Below are positions 47,250 to 54,616 of a stretch of 64,000 nt of DNA, in pieces (the first letter of the stretch is position 1; the number at the start of each line of letters is the position of its first letter). The position numbers and the translations under genes were made by a program. The notes under the pieces are model-generated. The model worked only from the letters and a program-made list of their open reading frames with translations. It was not told the DNA's origin and did no database searches. The stretch comes from Rheinheimera texasensis DSM 17496 (GTDB taxonomy: Bacteria; Pseudomonadota; Gammaproteobacteria; Enterobacterales; Alteromonadaceae): contig NZ_KL544005.1 of NCBI RefSeq assembly GCF_000711985.1, forward strand, positions 1,067,970 through 1,131,969, in the 5' to 3' direction.

Positions 47250-49643
47250 TCAAAGCGGTAATAACACCCGCAGCCGATAGCTCCGCCCGCTGTAGACCTC
47301 GGGCAACAAACCACCAGCCAGTTGTTGGTTGTCCAGATAAACTTCTGGCGCCACGATACCGGCCTGACGGCTGTAACTGCATTCAATCAGTGCACCACGG
47401 AACTGCCGCGTCACGGCTGCTTCCGGCCATTGGGCCGGCAGCTGTGGCTGGATCCGCAGCCCCGCGCCTTCACCTTTCAGACCAAACAAATGTTCAATCA
47501 GGCAACGATATACCCAATGCACAGTGCCGGTATTAAACAGCTGACTGGAGCGGCCTGCCGTGCGCGGATACTGGCTGTAAGCGCCACGATAATAGTTCGG
47601 TATAAACACCGGTAACTGGCCGCGTTGACGCTGATCGGCTTCATCGTCCGATGGCAACATCTGGCGCAGTGTGTGAAAAGCGCGATCGGCATCGCCGATT
47701 TGATACAAGGCATAGAGATAAAAGGCCGCCGCATGGTTATACACAGAGCCATTTTCAGCCGAACCGGGGAATTTTTGCGTGACCCGGCCAACATCGTCAC
47801 GCATCGCGGTATAAGCCGGTGCCAGCATTTGCACGCCATAAGGCGTTTGCAGCTGTGCATCCACCGCCTGTAATAACGCTTGTTGCTGCGCCGGGCTCGC
47901 CGCGCCGCTTAACAGCGCCCAGCTTTGTGGGTTGAGATAAATCCGCCCTTCAGGGTCTTTGCTGATACCAAACACCACATCATCGTCGGTGATGCCACGG
48001 CCATACCACTGACCGTCCCACAGATATTGATTCACCGCCTGATTAAAGGCTGCGGCTTTGGCCCGGTAGTCGTCTGCCTGCGCCGTCTCATTCTGGGTTG
48101 GGCCCTGGGTTGCAATAATTTCCGCCCAGGTATTCAGCGCATAAGCGGCGGCGAGACTGAGCCAGCCCGACACACCACGGCCTTTGTAGCCGACCATATT
48201 CATCGGGTCGCACCAGTCGCCTTGCTCGATATAACTTAAGCCCCGGTGGTCTTTTTTCTGCCAGAGCCAGGCCATAGCGCGATGCAGATGTTCGCGTACT
48301 GTGGTCGCGCCGGCGTCGGCTTCTTTGTAGCCGACTTGTTCGTCCAGCACAGACCAGTCGTTGGTTTCATCCAGATAAGCGCGCAGGAATAACGGCAGCC
48401 AGACACATTGGTCGGTATGCGGCACCTGATTGATGTATTTCAGCTGCGCGTCCGGATGCAGCAAAATCCCATCCGGCATTTCGCCGCTCTGATGCTGCTG
48501 CGACAGCGCCGTCAACAGCGCCTGCCGCGCCGTCTGCGGCGCCAGATAAGCCATGCCCATATTGTCCTGCAGATAGTTGCGCGTCTGCGGATCTGTCGTC
48601 AGCCGGTTCACCTCGCCGTGGTAATACACCTGACGCGGCAGCCACTGATTAACAAAATTATCCAGGCCCGCATCCGGTGTGCGGATTTGAATGGCGGGTG
48701 TGATAGCGTCCATATGCGCCTGACTTTGAACAATAGCTGCCGCAAAACCGTCAATCTGCGTTGAGCCAAAATAACGCTGCCGGATGGCGGCAATTTCGGC
48801 CAGATCTTTGGCCGGGCCAAACACAAAGCGGAATAACTCATTGGCGCCGGCAGCCAGCACCACATCGTACTGCAGTGCACAAGCCGGTGTTTCATAATCG
48901 GCGTTGCCGTTTGCCAGCCGTTCGGCGCTGATACCAGCAGGTGCAGCCAGGCCGCCTTCACCTTCAAACTGCTGTTGATTGGCTTCCCACGCCAGCGCCG
49001 CGCGTTCTGCCAGCAAAAAGGTCTGATCTTTAAAGTCTTTTTGTTTGAAATAATCCGGATATTTCTGGTACGGCGTCACGCTGCTGCACACCACCGCCTG
49101 TAAATCCGCTTCATAACGGCCGCTCTGATTCATCCAGGACATATAGCCAACCGGAAAATACGGGTACAGACTGAGCCGGCGCGTGGCAGTACCTAAATTT
49201 CGCACCCGCAGCTGCCACAGCTCCAGCGGCGCATCCGGTGCCAGGCTCAGCCGCCATTCCAGCCGTAAATCATCAGTGAGCTCGAGCTGCCAGCAGATGT
49301 CAGCACTGCCGGCGGAAAACACAAACTTTGCCGGGGCACGGCGTACCGGTTCATACGGCACCGACCACAATTCGCCGCTGTCCTGATCTTTGACATAAAC
49401 AAAGCGGCCCGGATGATGGGCGTAATACGGCTGCTCCGGCTGCATAAAAGTTTTGGCTTCCAGATTGGGCGCATGGGCGTATTTGGCCGGTTCCGGCTGC
49501 ATAAACTGGGCAGTGGCATAACCGCGGCAGTTCAGCTGGATCATCATGGTCTGATTCCATAAAAATGCGGCGGCCTGCGGCATGGCGGTGGCACTGAACA
49601 ATTGATAACGCTTCCCTGTAGCATCCGGATTCATCAAAGGCAT
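47250..49643 (-). CDS. GH94 phosphorylase, probable cellobionic acid phosphorylase
   Basis: 797 residues, one GH94 unit of beta-sandwich, linker helices and (alpha/alpha)6 barrel. [19 protein letters not shown] holds the catalytic Asp479. In cellobiose phosphorylases this motif reads GDWNDG; the CDPMNMVG form is, as I recall, the one seen in cellobionic acid phosphorylases. [15 protein letters not shown] and a late [11 protein letters not shown] complete the barrel. Cellobionate plus phosphate would give glucose 1-phosphate and gluconate. The operon encodes a gluconokinase, which fits gluconate as product. Start overlaps the transporter stop (TGATG). Cellobiose or chitobiose phosphorolysis is the alternative. 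Confidence 0.8.
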
Positions 49644-51085
49644 CAGGTTTTACTCCCGGAAATATCAGTACTGGAAACGTCTTGCTCAGCAGCTACACGC
49701 CGCGCGGCCAGCTCTTGTTGCAGGGCATGGACCTGGGCTTCAGACAACGGATAACACCACATCACCGCCGCCGCCAGTAACGCGACAATGCCGGGGATCA
49801 CCGACATCAGCCACAAAATACCTTGTTGCGAACCGGCGTTTTGTTCCGCATTGGCGACATAACCCAGCAGTGCCAGCACCCAGCCGATGGTGGCAGAAGC
49901 CAGCGCCCCACCGAGTTTTTGCGAAAAAGTCGCCGCCGAAAATGTCATGGCGGTGGCCCGCCGGCCGGTGCGCCATTCGTTGTAATCCGCGCTGTCGGCA
50001 TACATCGAAAATGCCAGCGGCGACTTGGGCCCCAGCACAAAACCAATCGCCAGATTCAGCGCAAATACCAGTGTGATGTTGTCCGGCGGCACGAAATACA
50101 GCGCCAGCGACATCACCCCAGCCAGGCTCATCAACAACATCATCAAGGTTTTCTTCGGCAGAAAACGCGTCATCAGCGGGGTCGATGCAGCGCCAAGCGC
50201 CAGTGCCAGCATATAACTCGACAAAAACTCACCGACCAGCTGTGGCTGCTGCAGATAATATTTGAAGTAATACACAGCGCTGCTGGCACGCAACGTGATG
50301 GTGATCATGATGACCAGCGCCAGGCAAAACAGCACCAGCCATGGTTTGTTGCCGGCCAAATCGCGGATGTCCTGCCACACCGGTGCCGGCACAGTACTGA
50401 CCGGCTGAATACGTTCGCGCGTGCTGGCAAAAGTGCAGAGAAACAACAACGCCGCCGCCAGACCAAACAGCCCCATCGTCAGCTGCCAGCCCAGTACGTC
50501 GTCGCCCTGCCCCAGCAGTGGCACCAGTTTAGGTGTCAGATAAGTGACTAAAATGCCGCCGGTAAAACCGCCGATAAAGCGGAAGCTGACCAATGTGGTG
50601 CGGTCCTGACTGTTGGCAGTGATGACGCCGGAGAGCGCTGAATACGGAATATTAATGCCGGTATAAATCAGCATCAGCAGGCTGTAAGTGCCATAAGCCC
50701 AATATAATTTGCCGTCGGCATCGAGGTCGGGCGTGGTGTAAGTCAGCACACCGGCGCCCGCCAGCGGTAACGCCAGCCACAGCAGATATGGCCGGAATTT
50801 GCCAAAACGCGAGCGGGTGCGGTCGGCAATCGCCCCCATCATCGGGTCGGTAAAGGCGTCAATAATTTTGGTGATCAGCATCATAGTGCCGGCAGCGGCA
50901 GCGGAAATACCAAACACATCGGTATAAAAAATCAGTAAAAAGGCCGAGATATTGGCCCAGTAGAAGTTAAAGCCGATATCGCCGACGCCGTACCCGACTT
51001 TCTCGCCAAGCCCAAGCCGCTGCTGCGGGCTAGTCGCCTGTGGTCCTTCACTTACGCTGGTGCTGCTGATGGTCGTGTTTGTCAT
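49643..51085 (-). CDS. GPH family sugar symporter, predicted aldobionate importer
   Basis: 480 residues with twelve hydrophobic segments. It begins after an extended polar N-terminus with [19 protein letters not shown] and has [22 protein letters not shown], the hallmark loop of glycoside-pentoside-hexuronide symporters. It lies between gluconokinase and phosphorylase genes on the same strand, so it probably imports the disaccharide acid that the phosphorylase splits. A 14-base operator-like word lies 46-59 bases before its ATG, inside the gluconokinase 3' end. Confidence 0.85.
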
Positions 51086-51113
51086 GCTGCTAAGCCTGTA
51101 TCATCCGGCACGG

Positions 51114-51746
51114 TTAATTCGCCGGTTTTGTGTTAGCGCTATCAGCGGTTCGCTGCAGTGCCTGAAATATGCGTTTAACTTGTTCCGGCAACGCCAACCG
51201 CAGGTCCAGCCACAACACGTCCGGTTCCAGTACCGGCACCTGCATCGTCGCGAGCTGACTGTGCAGCATAGATTCCGGCATAAAATGCGCGGTGCGGGCG
51301 CGTAACCGTGCTGCCAGCACGTCAGCCGGCCCGTGCAGGTAGACAAATAATGGCGCAGCAGCAGCGGCACGGATCTGCGCCCGTTGCTGCTGAATCAGAC
51401 CGGAGTAACTCAACACAGTCGGCAGCCCGCTGGCCTGTTGTTGCTGCAGCGCCTGACATAACAATCCGACCCAGTGCTGGCGCAGTTCTGCGGTTAACGG
51501 CTGGCCAGATGCCATCATTTGTTTGGCAGTAGCAGAATGAAAATCGTCGCCTTCCAGATAAGTCCAGCCCAGCGCGTCCGCACAATGCCGCGCCAGCGTG
51601 GATTTGCCGCTGCCGGCCACCCCCATCAGAATTAACGTCTGCGGCTTTTGTCCAGCGACATCCTGGGCCGCTGCCGGGCCCGGGCCTGCTATCTTTGTAG
51701 GTGTGCTTAATGCTGATGGGCCGTCAGCTGCGGTATCACGCGGCAT
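51114..51746 (-). CDS. gntK: Gluconokinase
   Basis: 210 residues with LILMGVAGSGKSTLARHCADAL (P-loop; only short parts conserved: GVAGSGKST), YLEGDDFHSATAKQMMASG and PTVLSYSGL-type features of thermoresistant gluconokinases (usual YLxGDxxHPxxNxxKMxxGxPL). The variant HSATAKQM replaces the common HPxANxxKM. It phosphorylates gluconate to 6-phosphogluconate with ATP. About 35 N-terminal residues (Pro/Ala-rich) precede the core and may not be structured. First gene of the minus-strand aldobionate operon, divergent from the LacI regulator. Confidence 0.88.
   Translation of the reverse strand: MPRDTAADGPSALSTPTKIAGPGPAAAQDVAGQKPQTLILMGVAGSGKSTLARHCADALGWTYLEGDDFHSATAKQMMASGQPLTAELRQHWVGLLCQALQQQQASGLPTVLSYSGLIQQQRAQIRAAAAAPLFVYLHGPADVLAARLRARTAHFMPESMLHSQLATMQVPVLEPDVLWLDLRLALPEQVKRIFQALQRTADSANTKPAN
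51131..51144. promoter_or_regulatory. Operator-like 14-mer before the GPH transporter
   Basis: TGTTAGCGCTATCA contains the palindrome TAGCGCTA typical of LacI-family operators. It lies within the last codons of gntK, 46-59 bases upstream of the transporter ATG. The same 14-mer recurs at 52001-52014 and, with one change, at 51840-51853. Confidence 0.6.
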
Positions 51747-51835
51747 CTGCCTGTCCTTCTTTTGCTGCTATCCAGTGCTAAGATCCGGGAATGATGAAAT
51801 CGCTTACAACAATGCCGATACAGCTTAATTCAGAC

Positions 51836-51857
51836 AAAATGTTAGCGCAATCATTTT
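51836..51857. promoter_or_regulatory. LacI-type operator between gntK and the regulator gene
   Basis: AAAATG-TTA-GCGC-AAT-CATTTT: outer arms and the GCGC centre are perfectly symmetric. It contains TGTTAGCGCAATCA (51840-51853), 13 of 14 bases identical to the sites at 51131 and 52001. It is centrally placed in the divergent promoter region. Confidence 0.7.
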
Positions 51858-51956
51858 GACCACAAGACTGATTTTCCGTTATGGTGAGCCAATTATTGAA
51901 TGCTGTCGCAGCCTCCTGCAGCAGCATTCGCAGCAAAAATCGCAGGACGTTCGCTG

Positions 51957-52982
51957 ATGAATCGTAAACCCAATTTAAAAGATGTGGCTAAACTGGCCGG
52001 TGTTAGCGCTATCACTGTGTCGCGGGTGCTGACCACGCCGGAGAAAGTGTCAGACAAACTACGGCAAAAAATTGAACAGGCCATTCACGAACTGGGCTAT
52101 ATCCGCAACCACGCCGCCAGTGCGCTGGCATCCAACCGATCCGGGGTGTTGGCGGTGATCATCCCGTCCTTGTCGAATATTGTATTTAACGAAGTGCTGC
52201 AAGGCATTTACAGCGCAGTGAAACCACACCAACTGCAGGTCATTTTGGGCGATTGCCATTATTCGCCACTGGAAGAAGAAAAACTGATCGCCACTTTATT
52301 AAGTCAGGCACCGGAAGGGGTGATCCTGACCGGCACCGACCAGACCGATTACGCCCGAAAATTGCTGCAAAACGCCGGTATTCCGGTAGTGCAGCTGATG
52401 GAACTAACAGACCAACCCATTGATATCAATATCGGTTTTTCCCATCTGGATGCCGGCATGGCGATGACCCAACATTTGCTGGCACGCGGATATCGCCGGA
52501 TTGGTTTTCTCGGCGCCAGGATGGACCAGCGCACACAACAACGCCTGGCCGGCTTCAAGCGCGCGATAGAAGACTGGAACCTGACACAGGCGCGGGAGTC
52601 TCAGGCCTTGTGCCAGCAGTTTGTCGTCACCACCGGCCAGTCGTCGTCGATTAAACTCGGCGGCCAGCTATTGCAGGCGGTGATGGCCGAATCGCAGGGC
52701 CATTGCGACGCCGTCTTCTGCTGTAACGACGACCTGGCGCTCGGCGCTTTATTTGAAGCACGCAAAATGAACCTGCGGGTGCCCGCCGACCTTGCCATCG
52801 CCGGCTTTAACGACCTCGAAGCCTCAGCACTGGTCGAACCCGGCATCACCAGCGTCGCCGCGCCGCGTTTTGCCATGGGCAAACAGGCGGTGGAACTGCT
52901 GATGCAAAAAGCCAGCGGCAATCAAACAGAATTCCCGCCTATTGACGTGGGTTACAGCATTATGGTGCGCGGCTCGACCTGA
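51957..52982 (+). CDS. LacI family repressor of the aldobionate/gluconate genes
   Basis: 341 residues from an ATG with AGGA about 10 bases upstream. The N-terminal LacI helix-turn-helix (NLKDVAKLAGVSAITVSRVL) and hinge are followed by a periplasmic-binding-like core with VLAVIIPSLSN, RGYRRIGFLGARMDQRT and AVFCCNDDLALGAL. The sequence is similar in style to gluconate repressor GntR of enterobacteria. Gluconate or a disaccharide acid is a likely inducer. It is divergent from gntK and has an operator-like 14-mer inside its own helix-turn-helix codons (52001-52014). Confidence 0.9.
   Translation: MNRKPNLKDVAKLAGVSAITVSRVLTTPEKVSDKLRQKIEQAIHELGYIRNHAASALASNRSGVLAVIIPSLSNIVFNEVLQGIYSAVKPHQLQVILGDCHYSPLEEEKLIATLLSQAPEGVILTGTDQTDYARKLLQNAGIPVVQLMELTDQPIDINIGFSHLDAGMAMTQHLLARGYRRIGFLGARMDQRTQQRLAGFKRAIEDWNLTQARESQALCQQFVVTTGQSSSIKLGGQLLQAVMAESQGHCDAVFCCNDDLALGALFEARKMNLRVPADLAIAGFNDLEASALVEPGITSVAAPRFAMGKQAVELLMQKASGNQTEFPPIDVGYSIMVRGST
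52001..52014. promoter_or_regulatory. Intragenic copy of the operator-like 14-mer
   Basis: TGTTAGCGCTATCA lies in codons for GVSAIT of the repressor's helix-turn-helix. It is identical to the 51131-51144 site. Protein constraint could explain part of it, but the match to a non-coding-type operator 870 bases away is exact. It could act as an auxiliary or roadblock operator. Confidence 0.45.
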
Positions 52983-53092: not shown

Positions 53093-54616
53093 ATGCTGAA
53101 ACTCACTTTATCCCTGCTCACAGCGGCTGTATTCAGCCTGTGCTTTAAAACAGCAAAAGCGGGACAGACGTCATATACCGCGGAATCGCTGCATCAGGCG
53201 CTGAGCCAAAAAGATGCTGAGTTTTTCGAGCGTGGCTTTAATCAATGTGATTTGGCTTATCTCGACGCCAATGTCAGCGCAAAGCTGAAGTTTTACCATG
53301 ACCGTGCGGGTTTTCAGGACAAAGCGTTGTTTATGCAAAGTGTCCGGCAAAACCTGTGCAGTGACCCGGCGCATAAGCCTATCCGTAAACTGACCGCCGG
53401 TAGTTTAAGGACTTTTCCGTTATATCAAGATCAGCAGCTGTACGGCGCTATCCAACAAGGGGAGCATGAGTTTTATCTGCGCGAGCCCGGTAAAGCCGAC
53501 CGCCTGACCGGCACGGCCCGCTTTACCTCGGTCTGGCTGAAACAAGGCGACGATTGGCAGCTCAATGATGTGCTCAGTTATGACCATCAGGACCCGGTTA
53601 TCAGGGCAGCTGAAACTGTGGCAACCAGTACCACCAACAGCAAAAACAACATCGCAGAGCCATCTGCATCTTTTATCGAAGGCTTACTGAAACAACATCA
53701 GGTGCCGGCCTTGGGTCTCGGCATCATCAATCAGGGCAAATTGCAGTCGGTGCGGGTCTATGGTGAATTGCAACAAGGCGTGCCAGCCCCAGCCAATACG
53801 CTGTTTAAAGTGGCGTCGCTGACCAAACCTATTGTCAGCCTGCTGACGTTGCGGCTGGTGGCCGCCGGTAAATTTAACCTCGATGAACCGCTGGCGCGCT
53901 ATTGGGTCGACCCGGATCTCAAAACCGACCCGCGCCATCTGTTATTAACCCCGCGATTAGTGCTAACGCATCAGAGTGGTTTTGCCAACTGGCGTTATCT
54001 GGAGCCTAACAAAAAACTGCAGTTTCAGTTTCAGCCCGGCACCAGGCATCAGTATTCCGGCGAAGGCTTTGAATATCTGCGCAAAGCGCTGGAAGCGAAA
54101 TTTGGCCTGAAGCTGGAACAGCTGGCAGAACAGTATGTATTCAAGCCGGCCGGCATGAAAGATACGCATTTTTACTGGACGCCGGCAGTCGACGAGCAGC
54201 GTTATGCCCGTAACCACGACGCCAAAGGCCAGCTGCTGCCTTTGGAAAAACACAGCACAGCCAATGCTGCAGCCAACCTGCTGACCACAGTTGAAGACTA
54301 CAGCAAGTTTTTGCTGTTTGTACTCACGCAGCAACAGACGATGCCAGCGCTTTACCAGCAAATGCAGAGCATTCAGGTGCCGCTGAAAGCCAATAATGGC
54401 GTAGGCCTTGGCTGGGAAATCTTCAGCGGCTTTTCCACAGGAGAAGCGCTGATGCTGCATACCGGCAAAGATCCGGGCGTGTCCACCGCCGCCATGCTGT
54501 TTCCGCAAAGCGGCAATGGTTATGTGATTTTTATGAATGGCGACAACAGCATGCCGGTGCTTGAACAACTGTTGCCACAGTTGTACCTTGGCGCTGAACT
54601 GTGGCAACGAAAATAA
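53093..54616 (+). CDS. Serine hydrolase: NTF2-like domain fused to a beta-lactamase-type domain
   Basis: 507 residues from an ATG with CGGAG upstream. A signal peptide (LTLSLLTAAVFSLCFKTAKA) precedes an NTF2/DUF4440-like domain (about 25-170, ending DDWQLNDVLSYD). The class C/serine hydrolase domain follows, with SLTK (SxxK nucleophile), HQSGF and a YSGEGFEY Tyr motif, plus a late HTGKDPG triad (KTG-like). Role could be a peptidase, esterase or cell-wall enzyme; hydrolysis of beta-lactams is not implied. The fusion is unusual but seen in environmental bacteria. Probably periplasmic. Confidence 0.82.
   Translation: MLKLTLSLLTAAVFSLCFKTAKAGQTSYTAESLHQALSQKDAEFFERGFNQCDLAYLDANVSAKLKFYHDRAGFQDKALFMQSVRQNLCSDPAHKPIRKLTAGSLRTFPLYQDQQLYGAIQQGEHEFYLREPGKADRLTGTARFTSVWLKQGDDWQLNDVLSYDHQDPVIRAAETVATSTTNSKNNIAEPSASFIEGLLKQHQVPALGLGIINQGKLQSVRVYGELQQGVPAPANTLFKVASLTKPIVSLLTLRLVAAGKFNLDEPLARYWVDPDLKTDPRHLLLTPRLVLTHQSGFANWRYLEPNKKLQFQFQPGTRHQYSGEGFEYLRKALEAKFGLKLEQLAEQYVFKPAGMKDTHFYWTPAVDEQRYARNHDAKGQLLPLEKHSTANAAANLLTTVEDYSKFLLFVLTQQQTMPALYQQMQSIQVPLKANNGVGLGWEIFSGFSTGEALMLHTGKDPGVSTAAMLFPQSGNGYVIFMNGDNSMPVLEQLLPQLYLGAELWQRK

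Follow-up and report, generated by a model that had tools for sequence, protein, structure and literature searches.

Four adjacent genes of Rheinheimera texasensis DSM 17496 very likely form an operon for the inducible catabolism of cellobionic acid (4-O-beta-glucosyl-gluconate), as judged from their sequences and genomic context. The genes are located in a stretch of 64,000 nucleotides which was analysed as a whole and is referred to here as the window (Table 1). In the proposed pathway, a GPH-family symporter would carry cellobionate together with a cation across the inner membrane, after which the GH94 phosphorylase would convert cellobionate and phosphate into alpha-glucose 1-phosphate and gluconate, a reaction expected of a protein 62% identical to an already characterised enzyme. 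The gluconokinase would then phosphorylate gluconate to 6-phosphogluconate, which would enter the Entner-Doudoroff route. Bound at a shared operator, a GntR-type repressor would hold both the operon and its own gene off, and the repressor family suggests that derepression would be brought about by gluconate or 6-phosphogluconate from the first turnover. An earlier note on this DNA had described a GPH symporter, a GH94 enzyme, a gluconokinase and a divergent LacI-type regulator, and all four open reading frames lie where it had placed them, with their families confirmed by profile scores.

Table 1. Location of the predicted cellobionate operon, its control elements and receptor genes beside the regulator gene in related loci
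Feature	Position	Strand	Remarks
Window, 64,000 nt	NZ_KL544005.1, 1,067,970 to 1,131,969		Rheinheimera texasensis DSM 17496
GH94 cellobionic acid phosphorylase (predicted), 797 aa	47250..49643	minus	Last gene of the operon; identity to 4ZLE and tree
GPH-family cation symporter, 480 aa	49643..51085	minus	TIGR00792, MFS_2; cellobionate import predicted from context
GntK-type gluconokinase, 210 aa	51114..51746	minus	First gene of the operon; TIGR01313; true start may be further in
Predicted operator ATGTTAGCGCAATCAT	51839..51854	no strand	Alignment of 13 intergenic regions; 24 of 80 loci
Sigma-70-like promoter TTGACC-18-TATGGT for the regulator gene	51856..51885	plus	Consensus scan only
GntR-type LacI-family repressor (predicted), divergent	51957..52982	plus	NF052440; open frame from 51900; conserved start 51957
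TonB-dependent receptor genes beside the regulator	L002:3656-6331; L008:4039-6739		Related loci

The minus-strand operon is ordered gluconokinase, symporter, phosphorylase. The gluconokinase stop codon is separated from the symporter start by 28 bp, and the stop codon of the symporter gene shares one base with the GH94 start codon in the sequence TGATG (GH94 ATG at 49641-49643). This spacing makes a single transcript with coupled translation likely, in agreement with the coupled three-gene operon that had been suggested before. The search for a terminator on the 3' side of the phosphorylase gene yielded no more than a weak candidate, beyond which cydA lies on the same strand. At the other end, the regulator gene is followed (53093-54616) by a gene for a hydrolase that resembles serine beta-lactamases and has a DUF4440 domain at its N-terminus; the closest relative (L059) has it too, with 86% identity. 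Orthologues of all four genes of the cluster are found within the flanks examined in 27 of 80 related loci, so the combination is not due to chance.

The GH94 protein carries a supersandwich domain and an (alpha/alpha)6 catalytic domain over its full length, with PF06165 and PF17167 both above cut-off and a score of 217 bits for the catalytic domain. When compared with all solved structures it scores 1130 bits against 4ZLE, the cellobionic acid phosphorylase of Saccharophagus degradans (SdCBAP), to which it is 62% identical over 788 aligned columns. The next structure, a chitobiose phosphorylase, reaches 203 bits and the cellobiose phosphorylase structures 149 bits or less. A maximum-likelihood tree places the protein beside Rheinheimera homologues and inside the clade that holds 4ZLE, in a sampling where the other characterised GH94 types are represented by one cyclic-glucan-type outgroup only and XcCBAP is absent. 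The variant motif of the catalytic region corresponds to residues 475-485, within which D479 aligns with D472 of SdCBAP, which we take to be the catalytic Asp. The basic residues of the acceptor site, which the earlier note had proposed as a check, agree as well: R620 and K624 align with R609 and K613 of SdCBAP, presumably the contacts of the substrate carboxylate. Both are invariant in a set of 81 sequences, with Tyr in the cyclic-glucan-type outgroup; the DWCDPMN motif is also invariant in this set, partly as a product of selection since it was one of the search patterns, which does not apply to R620 and K624. In addition, Q353 and N356 align with Q347 and N350 of SdCBAP, of which the former is a ligand contact and the latter an Asn specific to these enzymes that replaces Asp (PMC5309861, PMC8741936).

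On the strength of these comparisons the GH94 protein is assigned to the cellobionic acid phosphorylase clade. The earlier note had arrived at the same enzyme and had regarded a grouping with cellobiose, chitobiose or laminaribiose phosphorylases as one outcome that would overturn it; given the score and identity to 4ZLE and the placement in its clade, the protein groups apart from these enzymes. It is extremely improbable that the enzyme is a phosphorylase of one of these three kinds and that the gluconokinase serves imported gluconate, which would be compatible with GH94 membership alone and with a weak GntP-like permease gene elsewhere in the host genome, but which is opposed by the gap between 1130 bits and 203 bits or less, by the CBAP-type residues Q353, N356, R620 and K624 and by the nesting of the enzyme in the SdCBAP clade. 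Identities as a cellobiose, chitobiose, laminaribiose, cellodextrin or solabiose phosphorylase were all rejected by score gaps and residues.

The symporter scores 386.6 bits with the TIGR00792 GPH model (cut-off 231.35) and 306 bits with MFS_2, and its gene lies near that of the phosphorylase in 37 of the 80 related loci, these 37 all being from Proteobacteria. It is predicted from this context to be the cellobionate importer. An insertion of about 80 residues is apparent in the symporters of several Cellvibrio and Gilvimarinus loci (L030:8219-9841, L043, L036, L061 and L078) and is absent from the window protein. The gluconokinase matches TIGR01313 with 124.6 bits (cut-off 113.75), which bears out its earlier description as a GntK-type enzyme, and it is encoded by the sole GntK-type gene above cut-off in the host genome. 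The host genome also contains a zwf-pgl-edd-glk-eda cluster (edd found by search, the others read from the sequence) and thus the Entner-Doudoroff route into which the earlier note had directed the 6-phosphogluconate. A cluster serving mainly gluconate utilisation, with gluconate as the cargo of the GPH symporter and a secondary role for cellobionate, would suit an operator flanked by gluconokinase and GntR as well as a host genome that has no strong GntP gene; the GntP-like permease is a weak, partial match of 33.5-35 bits which could also supply the gluconokinase. Such a role is nevertheless unlikely, as the symporter, coupled through the one-base overlap to the phosphorylase, belongs to a family of glycoside transporters and stays beside the phosphorylase in two loci (L064 and L073) where neither a GntK nor a GntR orthologue is near.

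The regulator of the predicted cellobionate operon scores 407 bits with the NF052440 GntR model, just above the cut-off of 400. Its LacI-family membership and divergent orientation stand as first described, whereas the start at 51900 probably has to be replaced by the conserved one at 51957, from which the protein would begin MNRKPNLKDVAK with AGGA just upstream, much as its relatives do (MNKKPNLKDVAK in L002). The intergenic region between the regulator and gluconokinase genes was aligned with those of twelve relatives, and the sole conserved block in these 13 regions is a palindrome with the core ATGnTWGCGCWAnCAT. The predicted operator, ATGTTAGCGCAATCAT, lies at the core of CAAAATGTTAGCGCAATCATTTTG, an imperfect palindrome that extends further. 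Of the 80 related loci, 24 contain the operator palindrome; base frequency alone would predict about 0.02 matches, and 20 shuffles yielded none. In all but one of these 24 loci (23) it is situated in the shared gluconokinase/regulator promoter, the genera being Rheinheimera, Cellvibrio, Gilvimarinus and Marinimicrobium, and the one exact match in the host genome is likewise at the regulator/gluconokinase promoter. The promoter-like sequence of the regulator gene begins two bases beyond the operator core, an arrangement that fits autorepression.

The operator is also found upstream of the symporter gene in L030, L043 and L077 (Gilvimarinus, Marinimicrobium) and of the phosphorylase gene in L042 (Marinimicrobium). 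Several Rheinheimera loci (L002, L007-L011 and L013) have one or two extra copies upstream of a TonB-dependent receptor gene that adjoins the regulator gene, which suggests an outer-membrane import step in these relatives; no match to a TonB receptor for the operon was found within the window. The possibility that the operator controls a wider regulon in the host was considered and rejected: the two sites with one mismatch lie inside a fliD-like gene, presumably that of the flagellar cap as judged by eye, and between unrelated genes. Additional operators at 51130 and 52000 were discarded as well, each having two mismatches, which is the chance level.

The bacterial cellobionate cluster is widespread. 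Among Proteobacteria it recurs in Rheinheimera, Cellvibrio and Gilvimarinus, and in Duganella with weaker similarity of the regulator, while loci of Xanthomonas and Rhodanobacter keep the symporter beside the phosphorylase. Most Rheinheimera have a GFO/IDH/MocA-type oxidoreductase gene after that of the phosphorylase (e.g. L002:12385-13377), which is absent from the window. In Firmicutes loci the phosphorylase occurs without orthologues of the symporter, gluconokinase and regulator; two of these encode an IlvD/Edd-family dehydratase close to the phosphorylase (L053:11718-12908 and L081:12379-14094), possibly a gluconate dehydratase standing in for the gluconokinase, and L053 has ABC-transporter genes nearby too. 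In the Marinimicrobium locus L042 the gluconokinase gene is followed by a full GntP gluconate permease gene. The permease and the two dehydratases are independent signs that gluconate is the product handled. They also speak against another glucosyl sugar acid, such as beta-glucosyl-glucuronate, being the natural substrate and cellobionate a side activity, and for glucuronate the gluconokinase and gluconate-type repressor of the cluster would be of no use. Such a substrate is very unlikely, even though 3-O-beta-glucosyl-glucuronic acid is the ligand in one crystal structure of SdCBAP (PDB 4ZLI, cited in PMC8741936), glucuronide transporters occur within the GPH family and the phosphorylase shows no association with AA10 LPMOs.

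The supply of cellobionate by LPMOs, as envisaged in the earlier note, finds no support in the host's own genes and amounts to an ecological guess. The host genome contains no PF03067 match that would indicate an AA10 LPMO, no GH9 cellulase was found in it, and there is one marginal GH5-type match. A membrane PQQ glucose dehydrogenase was rejected as a source of cellobionate, there being none above cut-off in the host genome. A soluble aldose dehydrogenase of the GSDH family is present, but it is found in 268 of 299 genomes of the host's family and is therefore uninformative. A close phosphorylase occurs in 83 of these 299 genomes, an AA10 LPMO in 57 and both in 19; AA10 is found in 19 of the 83 phosphorylase carriers versus 38 of the 216 others (Fisher p=0.32, a rough test because the genomes are related). 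There is no sign of the phosphorylase travelling with AA10 LPMOs across the family. In one family genome (G298:C18:69399-71707) the phosphorylase gene is in two pieces with stops, which is likely a decaying copy or an assembly error. As none of the usual cellulose-oxidising enzymes could be detected in the host, its cellobionate probably comes from elsewhere, and the host probably scavenges it or makes it with some oxidase that is not an AA10 LPMO. For the family as a whole we suggest, tentatively, that cellobionate phosphorolysis may be uncoupled from the oxidation of cellulose by LPMOs, with most carriers having no AA10 and using cellobionate from other organisms or another oxidase.

Cellobionic acid phosphorylases of Xanthomonas, Neurospora and Saccharophagus have already been described (listed in a table of PMC8950772). 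SdCBAP (Cep94B, Sde_0906, PDB 4ZLE/4ZLF/4ZLG/4ZLI; EC 2.4.1.321) resembles the host enzyme along its full length, in its domains and in the mapped active-site residues; S. degradans, however, is a cellulose degrader, whereas the Rheinheimera host is not visibly cellulolytic and has no detectable AA10 LPMO. Import, phosphorolysis and gluconate phosphorylation are three steps that the host operon would have in common with CBT-1, CAP and gluconokinase of Neurospora crassa, which have been rebuilt in yeast with gluconokinase as the limiting step (PMC4537572). The Neurospora set is fungal and has a different MFS transporter, whereas the host operon is bacterial and combines a GPH symporter with a GntR-type repressor. 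The GntR/gntK gluconate regulon has the same repressor and kinase families and a shared palindromic operator as in the host, where gluconate would be the product of phosphorolysis, but instead of its gluconate permease the host operon contains the GPH symporter and the GH94 phosphorylase. Escherichia coli uses the same carbon source by another route, which needs the predicted phospho-beta-glucosidase AscB, in contrast to the phosphorolysis proposed here (PMC4403981).

The description of this gene set as little known is thus partly justified: the pathway itself has been published for Neurospora and yeast (PMC4537572) and the cluster is widespread, but a literature search that missed most subscription journals found no paper on a bacterial operon with symporter and repressor. 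What is added here is the conserved operator, the TonB receptor in relatives and the question of the cellobionate source. In this operon the cellobionate pathway would take a bacterial form under the control of a repressor, for which a candidate transporter and an operator open to testing can be named, and which may be of use in biotechnology for exploiting oxidised cellulose products. Since the phosphorylase shows no association with AA10, one has to ask from what source bacteria lacking AA10 obtain their cellobionate. If its use is uncoupled from LPMOs, cellobionate (or a glucosyl sugar acid close to it) would be a shared nutrient in aquatic communities.
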